The translations under genes were made by a program, and so were the position numbers. Under the pieces are notes generated by a model that ran no database searches, was not told the origin of the DNA, and saw nothing but the letters and a program-made list of their open reading frames with translations. Source: Plasmopara viticola (Eukaryota; Oomycota; Peronosporomycetes; Peronosporales; Peronosporaceae). Taken from it: a stretch of 64,000 nucleotides of DNA. Numbering within the stretch: the stretch's first letter is position 1; every line of letters starts with the position of its first letter. Shown one piece after another: positions 17,011 to 58,544 of this stretch. Where the stretch lies: contig MBPM02000081.1 in NCBI GenBank assembly GCA_001695595.3, positions 186,001 to 250,000 of the forward strand, in the 5' to 3' direction.

Positions 17011-18384
17011 TTACGAAGAACTTCGGGGTCGCTTTTTTCTCGCGTGATCCTTCGACTTGATGTGTTGATAGGAAATTTTCTCTGGTCCTGGGACTTGAAG
17101 ACCGTGCGGCGTCAGATCGGTGCGCTGATTGCTGGGTTGAATGTGAGAAGCGCCAGGACGTCGTGTAGGACGTCGTGAAGGGATGGTTTGACGGTCCGCT
17201 TTCAAAAACTGTTCGCCAAGATCCCGTATGGCTGCTCCAATTTCTTCTTTTACATTATACTTCTTCAAAACATCATCCAAATCGTTCTTGAGCTTTCTCT
17301 TTCTCTTATATCTTGTGTTGGTATTTGTTTCTTCCTTGAGTGTAGCAAGAAGCTTATCGCGGACAATGTCGCTTGTTTCCCCTCTGTAAAACTCTTTATT
17401 GGGCAACGAATTCGTGATCTTGTCGCTGTTGACCTTAACGAATTCGAAGAAATCACAGTACATGACCCGCCACCTTTTGAGACTTGCGTACCACACAAAC
17501 GGGCGCTCTATCTCTTTCAACATCCCTGGAGGTAGTTCTAGAGCCGCCAACGTACTCAATGCCGACGTTAAAGTACTCCCCAACTTTTTTTTATGAATTG
17601 TCAACTCCTTGTCGTCAAAATATCTGAAAAAATTAGAGAGCACCGCAGAAACGTAAAAAGGATCAACTGAGGACTCAAAATACAAGCTCAGCATCGCTTT
17701 CGTCTCTTTTACGGTCGGATGGAATCCCAGGGATTTTGTCGTTACGTGGTCGGAATACAAAGTGTACACTCTGTTGACAACAAACGCAGGTATTTTCCGA
17801 GCCCTAACTTTACGCTTCGTCGATTTCAAGGCCGTCGATTTCTTGAATTGATTTTTTGATGACGATTTGCGGGTCATAGTTTTATGGCTCATGTCCATAC
17901 TCGCTTGCGTCTTTGGAGTGCGCTGGTTGCTAGTTCGACTACTAGATGTTGCGATATCGCTGGTGGTTGACGTGGATGCGGAATTCCTTTGTGGAAAGTT
18001 TGGTGCCTCTATCAGATGAGCTGAAGTCTCGCTTGGGGGAACATTCAAACTCAATCGAGGACGCTTAGAAAATGCGTTTATATCCACCATTTCACGTACA
18101 GCATTCCTCGTGGCAGCTGTAGTCCCACTTGAATAGCTAATGCCATGCATGGCACTTTCGATTGCATTATTTATAGTACGATTTTCATCAGCCGCGGTTA
18201 GCGCCAAGTCGACGCGTTGCTTACGGCTGCCCCGAAGGAACTTTCTAGGAGACGACTTCGTGTATATTTTATCGGACGTTCTCACGACATGGTTGGACAA
18301 TTGTTGAGGATCGAGCTGATTAGACTCGGCAGCTACCCGGCTGCTGGTCACAAGGAGAAGCGCAGTCGCCAATGTGCCGCGCAT
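17011..18384 (-). CDS. Secreted RxLR-type effector, family 1 (A)
   Basis: I chose the internal ATG at 18384 (MRGTLAT), because all family members share MRG there and the signal peptide starts at that point; the longer open frame reaches 18414. The protein has 457 aa. Numbered from the longer frame: signal peptide about 11-29 (core ALLLVTSS, end VAA before ES), degenerate RxLR KFLR at 58-61 and DENR at 76-79 in place of dEER. A Ser/Thr-rich linker (about 130-190) and a basic patch (about 190-206) follow. The helical C-terminal domain includes RWRVMYCDFFEF (W315, Y319), like the WY module of oomycete effectors. The tail is KKRPRSSS. The tandem DLNxxP motifs of its paralogs are degenerate here (DINAFS 111-116, SLNVPP 122-127). 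It presumably acts inside host plant cells after secretion; the target is unknown. It is divergent from effector B, with about 1.5 kb between starts. There is no intron. Confidence 0.88.
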   Translation of the reverse strand: MRGTLATALLLVTSSRVAAESNQLDPQQLSNHVVRTSDKIYTKSSPRKFLRGSRKQRVDLALTAADENRTINNAIESAMHGISYSSGTTAATRNAVREMVDINAFSKRPRLSLNVPPSETSAHLIEAPNFPQRNSASTSTTSDIATSSSRTSNQRTPKTQASMDMSHKTMTRKSSSKNQFKKSTALKSTKRKVRARKIPAFVVNRVYTLYSDHVTTKSLGFHPTVKETKAMLSLYFESSVDPFYVSAVLSNFFRYFDDKELTIHKKKLGSTLTSALSTLAALELPPGMLKEIERPFVWYASLKRWRVMYCDFFEFVKVNSDKITNSLPNKEFYRGETSDIVRDKLLATLKEETNTNTRYKRKRKLKNDLDDVLKKYNVKEEIGAAIRDLGEQFLKADRQTIPSRRPTRRPGASHIQPSNQRTDLTPHGLQVPGPEKISYQHIKSKDHARKKRPRSSS

Positions 18385-19875: not shown

Positions 19876-21213
19876 ATGCGCGGCACATTGGCGACAGCGC
19901 TTCTCCTTATCACCAGCAGCCGGACAGCTGCCGAGTCTTACCAAATTGATCCTCGACAATTGTCTCCCCATGTTGTAAAAACCGCGGGTAAAACGCACAC
20001 TACGTCGTCTCCCAGAAAGCTCCTGCGGGACAGTGCGACAAATGAAAGTCGTACGATAGAAAAAGTCATGACAAGTGCTATGCATGGTATCACTGATCCG
20101 AGTGGAGCTTCAGCTGCCACGAGAGACACTGTACGTGAAATCTTAGATCTAAACGCGTTTCCTAAAGAAGCTGTACGTCCTCGATTTGATTTGAATGTTC
20201 CACCGAGCGAGACTGTAGCTCTTTTGGCAGAGACATCGGACATTCCACAGCAAACTCACGCATCCACGTCGACTGCCAGCGATATCGCGGTATCCAGTGG
20301 TCGTACGACAAACCAGCGCACCGCAAAGCCGCAAGCGAGATTGGGCATGGGCCGTAATGCTCCGACTCGAGACTCACTAGTAAAAAAACCGTCTAAGAAA
20401 TTGGCGGCTTTAAAAGTGACGAAGAGCAAAAACAAGGCTCGTAAGTATCTACATACGTCTGTTGTCGACGCGGTTTACACTATGTTTGTCAAACATTTGG
20501 AGACAAACTTTGTGGAATTCGACCCGACAAAAGAAGAGACGAAAGCAATACTTTACCTCATTCTCAAGAAATCAGCTACCCCACCAACGGTATCTGCGTT
20601 GCATTCGAATTATTTTAAACAATTTGAAAATGAGGATTTGGAAGGTCTGAAGGAGAAGTTGGGGATAAATTTGATGTCGACTCTAAGTTTGTTGGCTTCT
20701 TTGAAATTATCTTCGGAAGTATTGAACGAGATACAGCGCCTGTTTGTGTGGTATTCAAGTCTTGAAAGGTTGCGCGCCATGTATTGTTTTTTCTTCGAGT
20801 TCTATGAGGTCGACCTCATCGAAATCAAGAAATTGTTACCCGACTTTCGTGGATGGAAAGTAGACAACGCTGCCCGCGATCGACTCTTTGCCGAGTTGAG
20901 GAAAGATTTAAAACACACGACAAAATTGAAAAGGAGTTTGGACCTTTTACGAAATGCAGATGATGTTATGGCAAAGCATGATGTAGAAGAAGAAACAGCA
21001 GCAGCCGTACGGAAGGCCGGTAAACACTTTGTAGAAAACGAGCACCAATTCCCAAGCATACCAGCTCCTCCCGCCGCTTTACATAGCAGGCCCGGCAAGC
21101 AACACACCGATCTATCGCCTTACGATCTTCAAACTCCGGTACCAGAAAAGAATTATTTTCAACATATTATGTCGAATGATCAGCCTAGAGGAAAGCAACC
21201 TCGACGCTTTTAA
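19876..21213 (+). CDS. Secreted RxLR-type effector, family 1 (B), tandem DLNxxP
   Basis: The frame is open from 19855, but MRGT at 19876 is the family start, giving 445 aa. Numbered from 19855: signal peptide 8-26 (ALLLITSS core, cleavage after TAA), RxLR variant KLLR at 55-58, weak acidic site NESR at 63-66. Then come two intact DLNxxP peptides, DLNAFP at 98-103 (20146-20163) and DLNVPP at 112-117 (20188-20205), both fitting the plant EAR consensus. A basic stretch (about 177-198) precedes the helical C-terminal domain (FVWYSSLERLRAMYCFFFEF, about 297-316), where the usual WY tryptophan is L306 and the tyrosine is Y310. The C-terminus is basic (GKQPRRF) but weaker than in A and E. Likely translocated into host cells; nuclear co-repressor binding is inference. 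No intron or frameshift. Confidence 0.88.
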   Translation: MRGTLATALLLITSSRTAAESYQIDPRQLSPHVVKTAGKTHTTSSPRKLLRDSATNESRTIEKVMTSAMHGITDPSGASAATRDTVREILDLNAFPKEAVRPRFDLNVPPSETVALLAETSDIPQQTHASTSTASDIAVSSGRTTNQRTAKPQARLGMGRNAPTRDSLVKKPSKKLAALKVTKSKNKARKYLHTSVVDAVYTMFVKHLETNFVEFDPTKEETKAILYLILKKSATPPTVSALHSNYFKQFENEDLEGLKEKLGINLMSTLSLLASLKLSSEVLNEIQRLFVWYSSLERLRAMYCFFFEFYEVDLIEIKKLLPDFRGWKVDNAARDRLFAELRKDLKHTTKLKRSLDLLRNADDVMAKHDVEEETAAAVRKAGKHFVENEHQFPSIPAPPAALHSRPGKQHTDLSPYDLQTPVPEKNYFQHIMSNDQPRGKQPRRF

Positions 21214-31870: not shown

Positions 31871-33222
31871 CTAAGAGCTTCGAGGTCGCTTTTCTCTTGC
31901 GTGATCAATCGACTCGATCACGTAAAAACGCTTTTTTCCTGATTCTGGATTTGGCACATCGTGAGGCGATAGATCGGTGCGTTGCTTGCCGGGTTGACGT
32001 CGTGAAGGTATGATTGGGTGCTCTTTTTTTACAAACTCTTCGATTATCTTGTGTACGGCTGCTACAAGTTCTTCTTCTGGGCCATACTTTGACAGGACAT
32101 CATCCACTTCTTCCTTAAGCTTTCCATTCCTTCTAGTTTTTGTCCTGTCATTCATCTCTTCACATAACGTAGCAAAAAGTTGATTGCGGGGAGTGGCGTT
32201 TGTTTCTTCACTATTAAATTTCACATCGCGAAACGATGCCGTGATTTTGTCGCTGTTGACCATAAAAAACTCGAAAAAATCACGATACATGGCCCGCCAC
32301 CTTGCGAGACTTGCGTGCCACACGAACGGACGTGATATCTCTTGTAACATTTCCGGAGAGAGGTGTAGAGCCATCAGTGACCTTAGAGACGACATCAAAG
32401 TCGTTCCTAATTTCTCCTCTAAAAAGTGCAAGTCCAGTGCTTTAATCGATCGAAAGTAATTAGAATGCATCTGCGATACGCGTAACGGAGCAACTGCTGC
32501 CTCGATGTACAGGGTCAGCATTGCTTTCGTCTCTTCTTTTGTCGGGCCAATCCCGGAGGTTTTGTCATCTGATGTTCGAGATACAAAGGGTACACCTTGT
32601 CGACAACAGGCGTAAGTAGCTCATTGCGAGCCTTTCTGCCACTATACGTCCCTTTTGAAGCTGTCGTTTTTTTAATTTGATTTTCGACAAGTGGTTTTGA
32701 GGTCATGACTTTACGGCCCATGACCAAACTCGCTTGCGTCTTTGCCGTGCGCTGATTGCTCGTCCGACTCCTAGGTACTGCGGGATCACTGGCGGTTGAC
32801 GTAAATGCGTGATTTCTTGGTGGAATGTTCGATGCCTCTGACAAAAGCGCTGATGTTTCGCTCGGTGGAAAATTGAGATCAAATCGAGGACGTACAACTT
32901 CTTCAGGAAACGCGTTTAAGTCCAAAATTTCACGTACAGCGCGCCTCGAAACACCAATAGCCCCGCTTGGATCAGTGATGCCATGCACAGCACTCGTCAT
33001 GGCATTTCTTATCGTACGACTTTCATCAGCCGTGGTAAGCGCCAAGTCGGCGCGTTGCTCACGGCTGCCCCGAAGAAACCTTCTAGAAGACGACTTAGTA
33101 TTCACTTTATCAGATGTCGTTACAACATGGTGCGACACTTGTTGAGGATCGATTTGATTAAACTCGGCAGCTGTCTGGCTGCTGGCCGCAAGGAGAAGTG
33201 CCGTCGCCAGTGTGCCGCGCAT
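31871..33222 (-). pseudogene. RxLR-type effector, family 1 (C), single frameshift
   Basis: Two overlapping frames together cover the whole family-1 layout. 32515-33222 encodes the start: MRGT signal peptide, canonical RFLR at residues 48-51, DESR at 66-69, and intact DLNAFP at 101-106 (32905-32922) and DLNFPP at 115-120 (32863-32880). 31871-32521 encodes the C-terminal domain with ARWRAMYRDFFEF and a REKRPRSS tail. Compared with paralogs, one base appears to be missing near 32545-32552, in the segment before the conserved PTKEET block. Everything else looks undamaged, so this is either a very young pseudogene or an assembly error. If real, the first frame would give a truncated secreted protein with both DLNxxP motifs but no WY-like domain. 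Confidence 0.85.
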
Positions 33223-38487: not shown

Positions 38488-39858
38488 ATGCGCGGCACAT
38501 TGGTGACTGCGCTTCTCCTTGCAGCCAGCAGCTTGACGGCTGCCAAGTCTAACCAAATTGATCCTCGACAATTATCCCACCGTATCGTAAAGACACCTGA
38601 GAAAAATAATATCAACTCATCTCCTAGAAAGTTTCGTCGAGACAGCCGTAAGCAACGCGCCGAGTTGGCGCTTTCCGCGGCTGATGAAAATCGTACAATT
38701 GAAAACGCCGTGACGAGTGCTACGCATAGTATTACTTATCCAAGTGAAGCTATTGGTGCCACGAGAGACGCTGTACGTAAAATCTTGGATCTAAATGCTT
38801 TTCCTGAAGAAGTTGTGCGTCCTCAATTTGATCTCAATCTTCCACCAAGTGAGACTTCAGCTTTTTTGTCAAAGGCATCGAACAGTCCACAAAGAAACTC
38901 CGAATCCACGTTGGCTGCCAGCGACATCGCTCTTTCGAGTAGTCGTACGAGCAATCACCACACGACAAAGACGCAAGCGAATTTGGACAAAGGCAAGAAA
39001 CCCTCGATCCTGAAATCACATTTAAAAAATAAATCGAAGGATCCGGCGGCTCTGAAAGCGATGAATGGTCAAAATAGTGTTCGCGGCGACCAATCCCCTT
39101 TTGATGTCGACACGGTTTATACTTTGTATCTCGACCACCTTAAGAAAAAATCTCTGGATTTCGACCCAACAAAAATAGAGACGGAAAAGATGCTAAACCT
39201 GTTCAGCAAGTCTTTAGTTGATTCTGCAAGCGTTTCTGGGGCGTACTCTAGACACTTTAGTCTGTCTGCAGATGAGGATTTGGAAGTTTTAAAGAAGAAG
39301 CTGGGGGTGATTCTAATGTCGACTCTAAGTTCGTTGGCGTCTTTGAGACTACCTCCGGAAATAGTGAAAGAAATACAGCAACCGTTTCTTTGGTATGCAA
39401 GTCTCGAAAGGTGGCGAGCCATGTACCGTGATTTTTTTGAGTTTTGTACGGCCAAGAGTGACAGAATCAAGAAATTAAGGCCTGGTGTGGAGTTGAACGC
39501 GGGAAATACAAATGACGCAGTCGACGGTAAACTTATTGCCGAGTTGAAGAAAAAAGCGCGTTTTCAGTCAAATATAAGTAAGATTGATAAGCTGTCAAAG
39601 GGTGTGGAGGATGCCATGAGGAAGTATAAAGTAAGCAAAAACGCAGCAGCAGCCGTACGAAAGATCGGTAGACCGTTCCTAGAAAACGAGTATAATCTCT
39701 TAATCGCTCCCACCACTGCTTCTCATAATCAACCCGGCAATCAACGCATCAATCCATCGCCTCACGTTCTTCAAAATCCAGTACCAGAAACGACTTCTTT
39801 TCGCGTCATTGAGTCGGGTGATCACGCAAGAAAAAAGCGACCTCGAAGCTCTAAGTAG
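38488..39858 (+). CDS. Secreted RxLR-type effector, family 1 (E), tandem DLNxxP
   Basis: The frame is open from 38458; I take MRGT at 38488 as the start, giving 456 aa. Numbered from 38458: signal peptide 11-29 (ALLLAASS core), RxLR position occupied by KFRR at 58-61, DENR at 76-79. DLNAFP lies at 111-116 (38788-38805) and DLNLPP at 125-130 (38830-38847), both intact EAR-type peptides. A Ser/Thr-rich and basic linker follows (about 131-212), then the helical C-terminal domain with RWRAMYRDFFEF (W319, Y323), and the basic tail KKRPRSSK at the very end. It has no intron and is undamaged. Tail to tail with broken effector D. Secretion and host translocation follow from family knowledge; nuclear action is inferred from the tail and DLNxxP motifs. 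The lost RxLR leucine raises the question of whether the translocation motif is still needed. Confidence 0.9.
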   Translation: MRGTLVTALLLAASSLTAAKSNQIDPRQLSHRIVKTPEKNNINSSPRKFRRDSRKQRAELALSAADENRTIENAVTSATHSITYPSEAIGATRDAVRKILDLNAFPEEVVRPQFDLNLPPSETSAFLSKASNSPQRNSESTLAASDIALSSSRTSNHHTTKTQANLDKGKKPSILKSHLKNKSKDPAALKAMNGQNSVRGDQSPFDVDTVYTLYLDHLKKKSLDFDPTKIETEKMLNLFSKSLVDSASVSGAYSRHFSLSADEDLEVLKKKLGVILMSTLSSLASLRLPPEIVKEIQQPFLWYASLERWRAMYRDFFEFCTAKSDRIKKLRPGVELNAGNTNDAVDGKLIAELKKKARFQSNISKIDKLSKGVEDAMRKYKVSKNAAAAVRKIGRPFLENEYNLLIAPTTASHNQPGNQRINPSPHVLQNPVPETTSFRVIESGDHARKKRPRSSK

Positions 39859-41463: not shown

Positions 41464-42822
41464 TTACTTAGAGCTTCGAGATCGCTTTCCTCTTGCGTGG
41501 TCATTCGATTCGTCAACATGAAGAAAACCCTTCTCTGGTACTGGATTTTAAAGATCGTGAGGGGATGGATAAATGCGTTGATTGCCGGGTTGGTCAGAGG
41601 AAGCGGCGCTCAATACAATTTGGCCTAATTGCGTCTCCCTATCTGCAAATACTTGACGAGCCGTTTTAAGGCTGCTTCTGTTTCTCCCTTTACACTATAC
41701 TTCACCATCACAGCGTCCACTTTTTGTAAAAGCTTATAATTTCTTCTTTTTATTTTTCGAGATCCATCCCATTGCTTGGCTTGATAGAATGTAGTGCGTT
41801 GCCTGCGTCATTTATTTCTTCTCCATGAACTTCTTCATTGGGCAACACATTGGTGTTTTTGTCGATATAGGCCTTATGGAACTCTAAGAAATCATGGTAC
41901 ATGGCCCGCCACCTCACGTGACTTGCATACAACACAAAGGGGCACTGAATTCCTCCAATATGTTCGGTGGTAGAATCAGAGACGCCAACGAACAAACGGT
42001 CGACAGGAAGTTCGTCCCCAGCTTCTTCTTCAGCATTTCCAGATTCGCGCCTTTCACACTTCCTGATAAAGTATTGTATACCCAAGATATGTGTAAAGCA
42101 TCAACTGTGAAATTTTAGCCATTGTAAGCATTTTTTCCGTCTCTTCTTCTGTCGATTCGATCGCGCAGAGTTGCTCTTTGGATGTTCGAGATACAGCTTA
42201 TAGATTTTTCCGACATCAGACGTGGATTCATCGTGAATGCTGCTTCTTTGTCTATCCGGCGCCACCGGTTTATTGGGTTGGTTTCCCGAAAATGATTCCA
42301 AAATCATGGGTCTATGACCTGTGTCCAAACTTGCTTGTGTCTTTGCGGTTATCTGGTTACTCGCGTGACTACTAGAAACTGCGAAGTCGCTGACGGTCGA
42401 TGTGGACGCCCGGTTTCTATGCGAAATGTCCGATACCTCTGACGAAAATGCTGAAGTTTCACTTGGTGGAAAATTTAGATCAAATCTAGGACGCATAACT
42501 TCTACAGGAAAAGCGTTTAGATCCAAGATTGCACGTGCAGCGCCCGTCGTGGCACCTGTATCTCCTCTTGGATCAGTGATACCATGCATAGCACTCGTCG
42601 TGGCGCTTTGTATCGTACGCGTTTCGTCAGCCGCGGAAAGTGCCAAGTCGACACGTTGCTCTCGGCTATTTCAAAGAACCTTCTAGGAGACGACTTGGTG
42701 TTCATTTTATCCAGTGTCTTAAGAACATGGTGGGACAATTGTCGGGGATCGATTTGGGTAGATGCGGCAGCTGTCCGATTGCTGACCGAAAGGAAAAGCG
42801 CAGTCGTCAACGTGCCGCACAT
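41464..42822 (-). pseudogene. RxLR-type effector, family 1 (D), multiple frameshifts
   Basis: Family-1 order is kept over the full length but broken into at least three frames. 42517-42822 gives MCGT, the signal peptide, and then a frameshift inside the RxLR site itself (SPRRFF, break about 42668-42675). 42101-42646 gives the DETR region and intact DLNAFP (42506-42523) and DLNFPP (42464-42481). A second break lies near 42152-42170. 41750-42085 carries VRWRAMYHDFLEF. The tail, GKRSRSSK and a stop, is found in a further frame at 41464. Clearly dead. Confidence 0.85.
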
Positions 42823-54989: not shown

Positions 54990-57900
54990 AGAAATTGAAC
55001 CAGCTTCGGTGATATCATCAACGAAAACATCTCAGGTCGAATCTTTGCCTTGTATTCCTTGTCATGACGAGTGAAGTCTTTTACATGACACGTAAGTCTG
55101 AAGCAAAATTAATTCCTTATGACTCTTGCTCTCGACTAAATAATGCTCCGACTGATCAAAGCTCCGACAAATGACGGGAATTTTTACAATTTGAAGCTTT
55201 TTCGCCGCCTCAGCTGGCGATATCTTAGGCTAGTGCTCACCGGGACGTACGTAGCGTCCCTTTCTTATCATTTACTGGAGACAAAGGATCTGAGGTCGCT
55301 AGGAAAAGGAAAATGCTACATACGCACATTTTGCCGTGATGAAGCTGATACTTTACAGTCTATTAAGCCCTTGTGGCTTTTAAAAAAGCAATACACCTAC
55401 GACTTACTATTCACGGCACAAGCGAAGCTATCAATTTAAAAAAAACCTTTGTGCAAAGACGAATTTTGGTGTAGAGGAGCTTTGAATGCCGAAGCAAATA
55501 CTTAAAAGGGTAAACTTAGTCTTAGCCGATGAATAAACTGACCGACATGTACCCGTCTACACTGCCTTTGGTCATCGCTATGACCAAACGAACTCTTCGC
55601 ATAAACAGGATGAATAGTGCTCCTCCATCTTCTATTGGCTGTATTCCAAGTTTTGGCGACGTAAGATGTAAGGGGTCATTACAATGTTCCACAAGTGGTA
55701 ATCGATAAACTGAGACATGGCCGATCCATTTGCAAAACGACATAAGATGAAGGAAACGTTAATTTGGCTATTTTTGGCCACAAAGCGCTTGGCAGCAGGC
55801 ACTTTAATGTTAAGGCATCATTTGTGTGGAAAAAACAATGATCGACCAAGTGCTATCCCGCGCGACTCTGACACAAATTCGATCTTCTCTTACTTGACGA
55901 TCTTTTGCAGTGGTGAATGGCGCTAATTCTTATAATGTGTTGGCCGCGACTTAAAAAAAAGTGCTGACCGGGGATCCGCAATTTGCCACTAAAAGTGACC
56001 TAAGGGCTTAGAACTTCCTAACATTGGCTATTTTTGATACGCGTTAAAAAAACTGGTAGAAAATTTGTGTAGCGGAGAAGCTAAGCGACCAACGCAGTCA
56101 AAATTGCTGTGCATATAAGCACAAAACACACATCAGATGACTCGTTCTGGGTGACTGGCGATGCTTTGACCAGTTAGTTTCTGAAGTAGTTGCTCTATGC
56201 CCAAGACATGCACTTTGTAGAACAAAAAACCTTTTTAGTAATTTGCATTATTATGTCCAAATTTCCGTTTTCTTCCTTTTCGTAAATTATCACACCTTGG
56301 TTGGTTTGAGGGATTGGCGATACTAATCGAATCTGTAGCATCCATGATCATGGAAAATTGGAGCTTGATGTTACTGGTAGCACTGTTTTAAGTTGTAAGC
56401 TCCAGGATCGAATCAACGCGGTCACTTTTCGAGGGCAATTTGCCGACTAACTTTTTATTGCCGTGACAAAAGTCATGAAATAACTCGTACATGATGAGCA
56501 ACTTTACACTGTAGGCTTCCTTCAAGTTCTCCTCAGTAGCCTCTACTGCCGACTCTCCATCCCCTAGCAATTTTGCCAAATCCGTGTCCAACAATTTTAT
56601 GATATCATCCGGCTTTTGAGAATATGCCAGGTCCTTGAGTGTATTAGCAGTATTGATGTTGTTTGGACTTGAGTTTACTCTCCATCTGAGTAAGCGAAGC
56701 ATGAGAGCTGTCTCTCTCAGATACTGGTGAAACGGAAGGTTCAAAGCTTTGAGAAAACCCTCGTGGATCTTTTCTACCTCTTCGGTTACCTTGTCTTTAG
56801 GTCCCACCACGGGGCCTAGCGCCAATATAGCCTCCCAATTCTCGAAGGAGGCCTGACCATTCACCATCGCGGTATGCGCGTATTCCTCATTTTCTTCTGG
56901 CAAGTTCAGAGGGCGCCCGACTAGATGCGGATCTACATCGCCAGGGAGTTTATTCAAGTCAAACAATAACTTCTCGTGGTTGTTGAGTCGACCATCAAGA
57001 GTTGCGGCGCTAGTCGTAGATGAGCCAGAGGGCACGGGTCGAAAGTCGTGGTGCGCTATACAATTTACAGCATTTACCATAACGACAGTAGGCACGTCTT
57101 CTTTTAGTCTTTTTGCTAATACAGTTGGCGCAATGTTCGTCACCGACACCAGAGCTTTTTCTGAATTTGGCAAAGCATGCAGTGCTAGTCCATCCACATT
57201 GTCAGTCGTCGATTCGATGCGCTGGCGCTTGCTTTGTCTGATCTCCATGTCATCGGGGTGTGTGTCCATGTCGATCGTTGACGCCTTCTGAGCGACCAGC
57301 TGCTTGTTGGGTCGACCATCAGGAACGACGGCTTCTATCGTAAAGGAGTCGGATGGCGCAAGTCGGTCATCGTGCTGCGTTATACTTTTTGCAGCTCCAT
57401 TCATATTGGTTCTTGGCTTATCTTTCCCAAGTCTTTTTGCCGATGCGAATGGCGCTTTGTTTGCCACCGGCACCAACGACTTTTCCATATTTGGTGTAGC
57501 GTGCAGTACTTTCCCACCCCCATGTCTAGGCGCCGGGTCAATGCGCCGAGGTTTGCTGTTGACAAATTTCAATGCAGGCTTTAATTGCATAAAGCTTACA
57601 AGTGTCTCCGCAGCTTTCGCAATTTCATCGTCTTCATTTGTTTTCAGCACAGTAGCCGCTTTTAGAATTGTCTGTTCAAATTCTTTGAGACTGTTTACTT
57701 CTGATAGACCTGTCACCATGCGCTCTTCGTCGCCCGCGTCGCCCGCCAATTTTTGGCTTTTCAACTCACGACTTTTTCGAAAAACTTGCCTGGGCAACAT
57801 CTCATTTTCTTTGCCACTAGACGTCACAAAGTCATTGTTGAGTGCTTGCTGAGGCTTGGCTTGGTTAGATTCTGCAGCTGTTCGGCTGTTGGCCGCAACT

Positions 57901-57995
57901 AGAAGCGCAATAGCCACGTAGTATGCGCCGCGCATGAGGATGGAGTGAGTATGCTGGACCTTTGCAAAATAAGTGACAACTGAAATGAATGGTAA
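54990..57995 (-). repeat. Left arm of large inverted duplication
   Basis: Reverse-complement similarity to the right arm (about 58545-61395) can be followed at several points. CAGCTGGCGATAT near 55208 pairs with 61151-61163. AGGATCTGAGG near 55285 pairs with 61076-61086. GTCATGACGAGTGAAGTCTTT near 55064 pairs with about 61300-61322. The 3' ends of effectors F and G share an ATCATGGA...TTGGAGCTTGATGTTACT block. The arm contains effector F plus about 1.4 kb of non-coding flank. Confidence 0.75.
56388..57935 (-). CDS. Secreted RxLR-dEER effector, family 2 (F)
   Basis: The frame is open from 58025, but the MRG at 57935 begins the signal peptide, giving 515 aa. Numbered from 58025: signal peptide 31-51 (AIALLVAANS core, end TAA before ES), RxLR site degenerate (RQVFR 79-83), canonical DEER 99-102. 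The middle has two tandem units of about 105 aa (about 158-262 and 265-368), each with a basic RRIDP/KRQRI start, an LHA.PN..K.LV.V segment and an AxRL block; paralog G has one unit. The second unit ends with DLNKLP at 356-361 (56943-56960), an EAR-type DLNxxP; the first has DMDTHP at the matching place. The C-terminal helical domain (LLRLLRW, NLKEAYSVKLLIMYELFHDF) resembles the W...MYxxFxxF block of family 1. No intron. Divergent from G, with 0.67 kb between starts. Confidence 0.9.
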   Translation of the reverse strand: MRGAYYVAIALLVAANSRTAAESNQAKPQQALNNDFVTSSGKENEMLPRQVFRKSRELKSQKLAGDAGDEERMVTGLSEVNSLKEFEQTILKAATVLKTNEDDEIAKAAETLVSFMQLKPALKFVNSKPRRIDPAPRHGGGKVLHATPNMEKSLVPVANKAPFASAKRLGKDKPRTNMNGAAKSITQHDDRLAPSDSFTIEAVVPDGRPNKQLVAQKASTIDMDTHPDDMEIRQSKRQRIESTTDNVDGLALHALPNSEKALVSVTNIAPTVLAKRLKEDVPTVVMVNAVNCIAHHDFRPVPSGSSTTSAATLDGRLNNHEKLLFDLNKLPGDVDPHLVGRPLNLPEENEEYAHTAMVNGQASFENWEAILALGPVVGPKDKVTEEVEKIHEGFLKALNLPFHQYLRETALMLRLLRWRVNSSPNNINTANTLKDLAYSQKPDDIIKLLDTDLAKLLGDGESAVEATEENLKEAYSVKLLIMYELFHDFCHGNKKLVGKLPSKSDRVDSILELTT

Positions 57996-58544
57996 GGAGT
58001 ATGCTGCAAAATAGTGTTTTTTCATTGGTCAGAATTCGGCTTAATAAATATGTCAAATGTTGACACCAATTGCCGCAGTATGATGAAAAAATTCTCTACT
58101 TGAGCCTTGTTGAGGTGCTAATATGAATCGTATCACCTCTTCGTATCTTCTGAACGCAGTTGGCGCAACTCGAAAGACGACAAAGAATGACAAAATGATG
58201 ATCCTTAAATGAGGAAAAGAAGATTCGCATTGCAATACAAACCTGATTTTGCAAATGTTTTATTCCGCAAATATACCCATTTACCGTAATTTACTGGGTA
58301 AACTACGATGTGGGAAGAACATTTTAAGTGTTTATTCGATTGCGATTTTATTTTCCCGAAAGAAATTGATGTTTTATTCATCAACTATATTTATTGTTAT
58401 CGTGAGTGTTTCATTTCTAAATTATAGTACTTTAAAGTGTAAAACAACTGCTTCATATTATTTGGCGTAGTTTACAATTGCTACCTGCATAGTGACACCG
58501 GTACGCATACTGGTATATGGTGTGATCTGCCTCTACTCCGTAAC
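57996..58544. other. Central spacer of the inverted duplication
   Basis: Non-duplicated AT-rich sequence between the two arms. It would contain the upstream promoter regions of both divergent effectors. No gene is recognised. Confidence 0.4.
58497..58516 (+). promoter_or_regulatory. ACCGGTAC and ATACTGGTAT upstream of effector G
   Basis: ACCGGTAC at 58497-58504 and the near match ATACTGGTAT at 58507-58516 lie about 90-105 bp before the ATG at 58604, where family-1 genes carry TACCGGTA. No equivalent was found upstream of F. Confidence 0.35.

Follow-up and report, generated by a model that had tools for sequence, protein, structure and literature searches.

An EAR-type DLNxxP motif, a putative TOPLESS docking site, is conserved on the predicted disordered N-terminal arm of a large Plasmopara viticola effector superfamily

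Effectors that mimic the plant EAR motif are already known from bacteria, fungi and one downy mildew (PMC8126959, PMC7446885). The downy mildew example, HaRxL21 of Hyaloperonospora arabidopsidis, is, like the proteins considered here, an RxLR effector with an EAR motif; it is nuclear and binds TPL, but its motif is of the C-terminal LxLxL type (LMLTL) and binds the N-terminal CTLH region (PMC7446885). The Hpa effector screen likewise used LxLxL, and ten effectors carrying that form, three of them nuclear, failed to bind TPL (PMC7446885), so an EAR motif alone is insufficient. A preliminary description of the locus examined here took HaRxL21 as the closest precedent, a place that belongs rather to the Jsi1-type effectors of Ustilago, Sporisorium and Magnaporthe, which are likewise secreted and have the DLNxxP form, several of them around 30-60 residues from the start (PMC8126959). 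Two Puccinia triticina proteins listed in Table 1 of the same article carry DLNAFP and DLNLPP, as found here, and the word 'oomycete' does not occur in its main text. The Jsi1 group is fungal and its TPL binding has been demonstrated (PMC8126959), whereas for the family described here such binding is a prediction. Two EAR motifs within one effector are found in XopD of Xanthomonas and Tip6 of Ustilago, which by their description resemble the doubled form present in part of this family, although those of XopD are of the LxLxL type (PMC8126959). A 2026 review places DLNxxP among the ligands of the TOPLESS N-terminal domain. Since the Jsi1 DLNxxP binds the second WD40 domain, a test confined to the N-terminal domain could give a false negative. 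We know of no sequence relation between the Jsi1 group and the P. viticola family.

The window, the whole stretch of 64,000 nucleotides that was analysed, corresponds to C81:186001-250000, and the genome searched comprised 92,937,831 bases in 358 contigs. A six-frame scan of the window found DLNAFP followed by DLN[V/F/L]PP at four loci, with a start-to-start distance of 14 residues, and these pairs, in genes B, C, D and E, account for eight of the nine DLNxxP matches in all six frames; every tandem pair in the preliminary description was thereby recovered. It had counted four effectors, which stands for the intact genes B and E but not for C and D, the frames of which are broken. The features are as follows.

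17011..18384, minus strand: gene A, an intact paralog of 457 aa
18067..18084, minus strand: first motif of A, off consensus, DINAFS (position worked out manually on the ORF)
18034..18051, minus strand: second motif of A, off consensus, SLNVPP (position worked out manually on the ORF)
19876..21213, plus strand: gene B, an intact, secreted effector-like ORF of 445 aa
20014..20028, plus strand: degenerate, non-canonical RxLR-like site of B, RKLLR
20146..20163, plus strand: first DLNxxP of B, DLNAFP (six-frame scan)
20188..20205, plus strand: second DLNxxP of B, DLNVPP (six-frame scan)
19876..20442, plus strand: N-terminal stretch of B, residues 1-189, pLDDT below 50 in the AlphaFold2 model, containing both motifs
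20455..21048, plus strand: predicted helical core of B, residues 194-391 (AlphaFold2 model)
32515-33222, minus strand: N-terminal piece of gene C, broken frame, 235 aa, with a canonical RFLR
31871-32521, minus strand: C-terminal piece of gene C, broken frame, 216 aa, overlapping the N-terminal piece
32863..32922, minus strand: tandem DLNAFP and DLNFPP of C (six-frame scan)
38488..39858, plus strand: gene E, an intact paralog of 456 aa with both motifs
38788..38847, plus strand: tandem DLNAFP and DLNLPP of E (six-frame scan)
42101..42589, minus strand: piece of gene D, whose broken frame has stops and frame breaks
42464..42523, minus strand: tandem DLNAFP and DLNFPP of D (six-frame scan)

Gene B is 97.3% identical to UniProt A0A650F4P6, a putative RxLR effector of P. 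viticola, and gene A is 95.4% identical to RLR8_PLAVT, secreted RxLR effector protein 8. The ninth DLNxxP of the window, DLNKLP at 56943-56960 (minus strand), lies in another effector-like ORF (56388-58025, minus strand) that represents a second effector-like family, with FDLNKLP in a linker around 355 residues in. Pieces matching this protein number 133 across the genome, and the FDLNKLP codon pattern occurs just four times, three on C81 and one on C94, so the motif is probably not family-wide there.

A genome search with B gave 67 matches, counted as pieces, the best on C81, C236 and C145 and weaker ones on C13, C48 and C270; the corresponding search from a C13 member found 71. Intact genes, taken as ORFs running from a family-type ATG to a stop with a minimum length of 400 aa for group 1 (C81/C236/C145) and of 580 aa for group 2 (C13/C48/C270), numbered at least 17 and at least 26 respectively, these being lower bounds that leave out pieces, shorter ORFs and broken copies, C and D included. 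Two group-1 copies that end earlier (412 and 414 aa) were retained, the 414-aa form being identical to a UniProt entry. Close homologs of the family carry RxLR-effector names in UniProt, and six P. viticola proteins in the databases match genes of this genome at 95-100% identity. The dN/dS, site-rate and tree analyses used 34 of the 43 intact genes, after the removal of nine near-copies more than 90% identical to one that was kept, among them L033, the sole intact group-2 gene without the motif. The tree places the two groups on opposite sides of one long branch (support 100/100; with midpoint rooting, 0.53 + 0.82 changes per column).

DLNxxP is present at the same position in 16 of the 17 intact group-1 genes and in 25 of the 26 of group 2, the exceptions being gene A (L005) and L033, which has GLNAPP; the identification of the peptide with this plant EAR form therefore holds across both groups. 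Two copies are found in 9/17 group-1 genes and 0/26 group-2 genes, and a single consensus copy in 7/17 and 25/26. A doubled docking site, proposed at first as a hallmark of the family, is hence confined to part of one group, and on the tree the two-copy state is seen in group 1 only; a clade (96/99) that includes the relative of the published effector PvRXLR111, gene A and the forms of 676-688 aa is without it. The original plant (ERF-type) consensus, (L/F)DLN(L/F)xP as quoted in PMC7446885, is matched exactly in 12 of the 17 group-1 genes and in none of the 26 of group 2.

The group-2 motif, FDLNAPPEET, is nearer in sequence to the second copy of group 1, and by its position after a helix (TRDTVRE in one group, LDTVRKA in the other) nearer to the first. 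One group-1 gene, L017 on C145, has the second copy only, and the conserved helix is missing too. When the two 14-residue units of the doubled form are compared, the mean BLOSUM62 score is 14.8, as against -8.4 for other neighbouring units of the same proteins, 5% of which reach the lowest score observed for the motif-unit pairs; because the two units are alike in this way, it is likely that the doubled form arose by local duplication.

Some further features of the family were noted. Four pairs of group-1 genes (L002/L003, L008/L009, L015/L016 and L018/L021) are 96-98% identical between C236 and C81, as might be expected if C236 represented another haplotype of part of the C81 cluster or a recent copy of it. 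The group-1 forms of 676-688 aa (L018, L019, L021 and L022) have a second match to B, from residues 162-173 or thereabouts to 443, which suggests a tandem duplication of the helical core unit inside these proteins. Two places, C181:19052-19480 and C78:216178-216606 (L066 and L067), match a group-2 member over its first 149 residues only, at 39%, and DLNxxP is missing from the sequence retrieved around them; they possibly represent a third group that shares the N-terminus and lacks the motif.

The frequency of the motif exceeds that in shuffled proteins. At least one DLNxxP occurs in 0.5% of shuffled mature group-1 proteins and 0.8% of shuffled group-2 proteins, and at least two in 0.003% of the former. 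Of 91 genome-wide matches to the DLNxPP codon pattern, 49 fall within matches to the family, and the 42 outside it are about as many as the 34 given by a reversed-pattern control; the feature is thus not limited to the four genes to which it was first ascribed, and the one remaining paralog of the window, gene A, is intact. Outside the family, an identical 17-base DLNxPP codon match is found at C81:68287, C48:360647 and C48:419755; the two of these places that were read (L068 and L069) contain near-identical open frames of 59 residues and probably belong to a dispersed repeat.

Strong constraint on the motif is indicated by dN/dS, calculated from pooled pairwise counts separately within each group. 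In group 1 it is 0.06 for FDLNVPPSET, 0.09 for FDLNVPP and 0.11 for LDLNAFP, compared with 1.21 for the seven-residue spacer between the sites, 0.59 for the linker that follows and 0.53 for the whole gene, whilst in group 2 FDLNAPP has 0.15 against 0.56 for the whole gene. Neutral evolution of the segment, which the preliminary description had named as an outcome that would speak against its reading, is therefore not what is observed. In group 2 the 16 residues preceding the motif also have a lowish value of 0.28. The motif codons have a dS of 0.53-1.31 and a dN of 0.07-0.10, hence their sameness is held at the protein level and does not reflect recent copying. Recent gene conversion was considered as the source of the conservation and is ruled out by the high dS. 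A chance likeness to DLNxxP, conserved merely through recent duplication or gene conversion, might be suspected from the clustering of the paralogs and the presence of several near-copies; given these synonymous distances, the rarity of the motif in shuffled proteins and its retention in both of two widely separated groups of the tree, this explanation is highly improbable.

The pattern of fixed and free positions is informative. Amongst same-shaped four-letter patterns, DLN..P ranks second of 409 positions in group 1 (12 of 13 sequences), behind PSE..A, which overlaps it. In group 2, where it is present in 21 of 21 sequences (L033 having been dropped beforehand as a near-copy), it ranks first of 572. 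Ranks of tree-based site rates over six-residue windows are less extreme (14/420 and 32/420 for the first and second motifs of group 1; 5/603 for that of group 2), because each group has one free position within the motif, the fourth for group 1 (rate 1.54) and the fifth for group 2 (1.05); D, L, N and the final P have rates of 0.18-0.40 in both. The letters common to the two groups are exactly the definition of DLNxxP. The slowest window in group 1 is TRDTVR, in the helix preceding the motif; GALEAY and dEER, elsewhere in the N-terminal part of group 2, evolve at about the same slow rate as its motif.

RxLR families usually conserve their N-termini and vary their C-termini. This is also the case here, with dN/dS of 0.40 in the N-terminal part and 0.66 in the C-terminal part of group 1, and 0.50 and 0.61 in group 2. 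The DLN block lies around 40-65 residues beyond the RxLR position, and some of its flanking residues are conserved too in group 2; it could in principle be an element for secretion, processing or host entry comparable to RxLR-dEER, its resemblance to EAR being coincidental. A canonical RxLR is found in 4/17 group-1 and 10/26 group-2 genes and is missing from both B and E, and dEER is found in 0/17 and 26/26. Hence the RxLR/dEER region that had been described upstream of the motif applies only loosely, and the DLN block persists in group 1 despite a non-canonical RxLR in 13/17 genes and the absence of dEER from all 17. This, together with the agreement of fixed and free positions with DLNxxP in both groups, makes such an N-terminal function unlikely.

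The AlphaFold2 models of B and of one group-2 member were built on shallow alignments, with 20 and 17 rows respectively. In both, the motif falls within a stretch of low confidence, with pLDDT below 50 from residue 1 to 189 in B and from 18 to 199 in the other protein, and this stretch adjoins a helical core, much of which has pLDDT of 70-90. Structure searches give no clear fold for the core, which is described here as helical and not as a WY module. The motif is accordingly predicted to sit in a disordered, exposed arm, and not to be buried in a folded domain, the other outcome named beforehand as unfavourable. The N-terminus of B is hydrophobic by eye and has a predicted helix at residues 2-19. 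Simple nuclear signals of the form K[KR]x[KR] are present within residues 111-205 in 10/17 group-1 and 22/26 group-2 genes, and within the last 60 residues in 11/17 and 6/26; B has none in either region.

One member of the family has been studied experimentally. PvRXLR111 (UniProt RL111_PLAVT) has an identity of 96.9% with L002 (C236:10532), 96.5% with L003 (C81:104668) and 49% with B; it retains FDLNLPPSET, its first motif being off consensus (NQHAFP), and by these alignments it is a member of this DLNxxP family. The protein is nuclear, in speckle-like structures (PMC7814959, PMC5908963), suppresses flg22 responses and promotes infection, and it binds WRKY40, a negative regulator, in yeast, pull-down and BiFC assays and stabilises it (PMC7814959). 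Silencing of NbWRKY40 produced no detectable change in the suppression of ROS by PvRXLR111 (PMC7814959), so its action is explained only in part. The DLNxxP motif points to a concrete candidate for a second partner.

The mechanism we propose is that an EAR-type linear motif, borne on the disordered N-terminal arm of a large superfamily of secreted P. viticola effectors, would dock on TOPLESS/TPR co-repressors in the host nucleus whilst further host proteins are contacted through the helical C-terminal part, the effector possibly bridging the two, with the net outcome that defence genes are held repressed. One site is the state common to both groups; the second, which part of group 1 has at a distance of 14 residues, might increase avidity or provide redundancy. 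From the sequence, docking of the DLNxxP peptide on TOPLESS-type co-repressors is fairly probable, although gene A, which is intact and does without a consensus motif, counts against it. So do the ten Hpa effectors that failed to bind TPL, the windows that evolve as slowly as the motifs or more slowly, the lowish dN/dS just before the group-2 motif, the failure of group 2 to match the stricter consensus and the lack of a simple nuclear signal in the two regions of B. Conservation reveals constraint and not the identity of a partner, and the peptide might instead bind another EAR reader, an unrelated host protein or the core of the effector itself. The IP-MS of PvRXLR111 gave seven candidate proteins, of which the account of that experiment names NbWRKY40 only and not TOPLESS, and 'topless' is absent from the main text of that paper (PMC7814959). 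The interaction of DLNxxP effectors from smut fungi and Magnaporthe with TPL/TPR (PMC8126959) points the other way, as does the predicted disorder of the arm, and a different partner seems decidedly unlikely.

The earlier proposal of host-nuclear co-repressor recruiters finds partial support in that PvRXLR111 is reported to be nuclear, immune-suppressive and WRKY40-binding, but recruitment is one of two possible directions. Sharing the docking step, the effectors could occupy the DLNxxP site of TOPLESS, displace host ERF-type repressors and so release hormone-pathway genes: Jsi1, docked by its motif on the second WD40 domain, induces the jasmonate/ethylene ERF branch (PMC8126959), Nkd1 blocks the recruitment of ZmIAA5, and competition of this kind would need nothing more than a docking peptide carried on a disordered arm. 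Stabilisation of a negative regulator by PvRXLR111 and its suppression of immunity are better matched by added repression of the HaRxL21 kind, and displacement in the manner of Jsi1 and Nkd1, the main alternative, is not a likely account of the family. If docking occurs, recruitment is somewhat favoured, since it fits the immune suppression by PvRXLR111.

A bolder form of the recruitment reading is that the constrained EAR anchor holds TOPLESS in every member, whilst the rapidly diverging helical modules of an expanded, fast-evolving set, counted at 43 intact copies of which some are near-identical, each pick out their own transcription factor or promoter complex in the host, WRKY40 being the partner of the PvRXLR111 branch. 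Judged from the sequences this is a rather doubtful extension; if true, diversification would alter which genes are silenced and leave the silencing step fixed, and the doubled anchor would be an avidity upgrade in one branch.

Amongst the titles and abstracts of the openly licensed PMC literature, no paper tying PvRXLR111 to TOPLESS was found, and none matched P. viticola and TOPLESS together with EAR motif or RXLR. Within the searchable literature, retention of the DLNxxP form throughout an oomycete superfamily appears to be new, as does the recognition of PvRXLR111 as a member of it. TOPLESS docking by this family would be, to our knowledge, the second downy mildew case after HaRxL21, through the other EAR form and perhaps another TOPLESS domain, and were the whole superfamily to dock there, grapevine downy mildew would have in TOPLESS a common hub within its host. 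Gene A, the match to RLR8 in this window, has no consensus motif and provides a natural comparator within the family.
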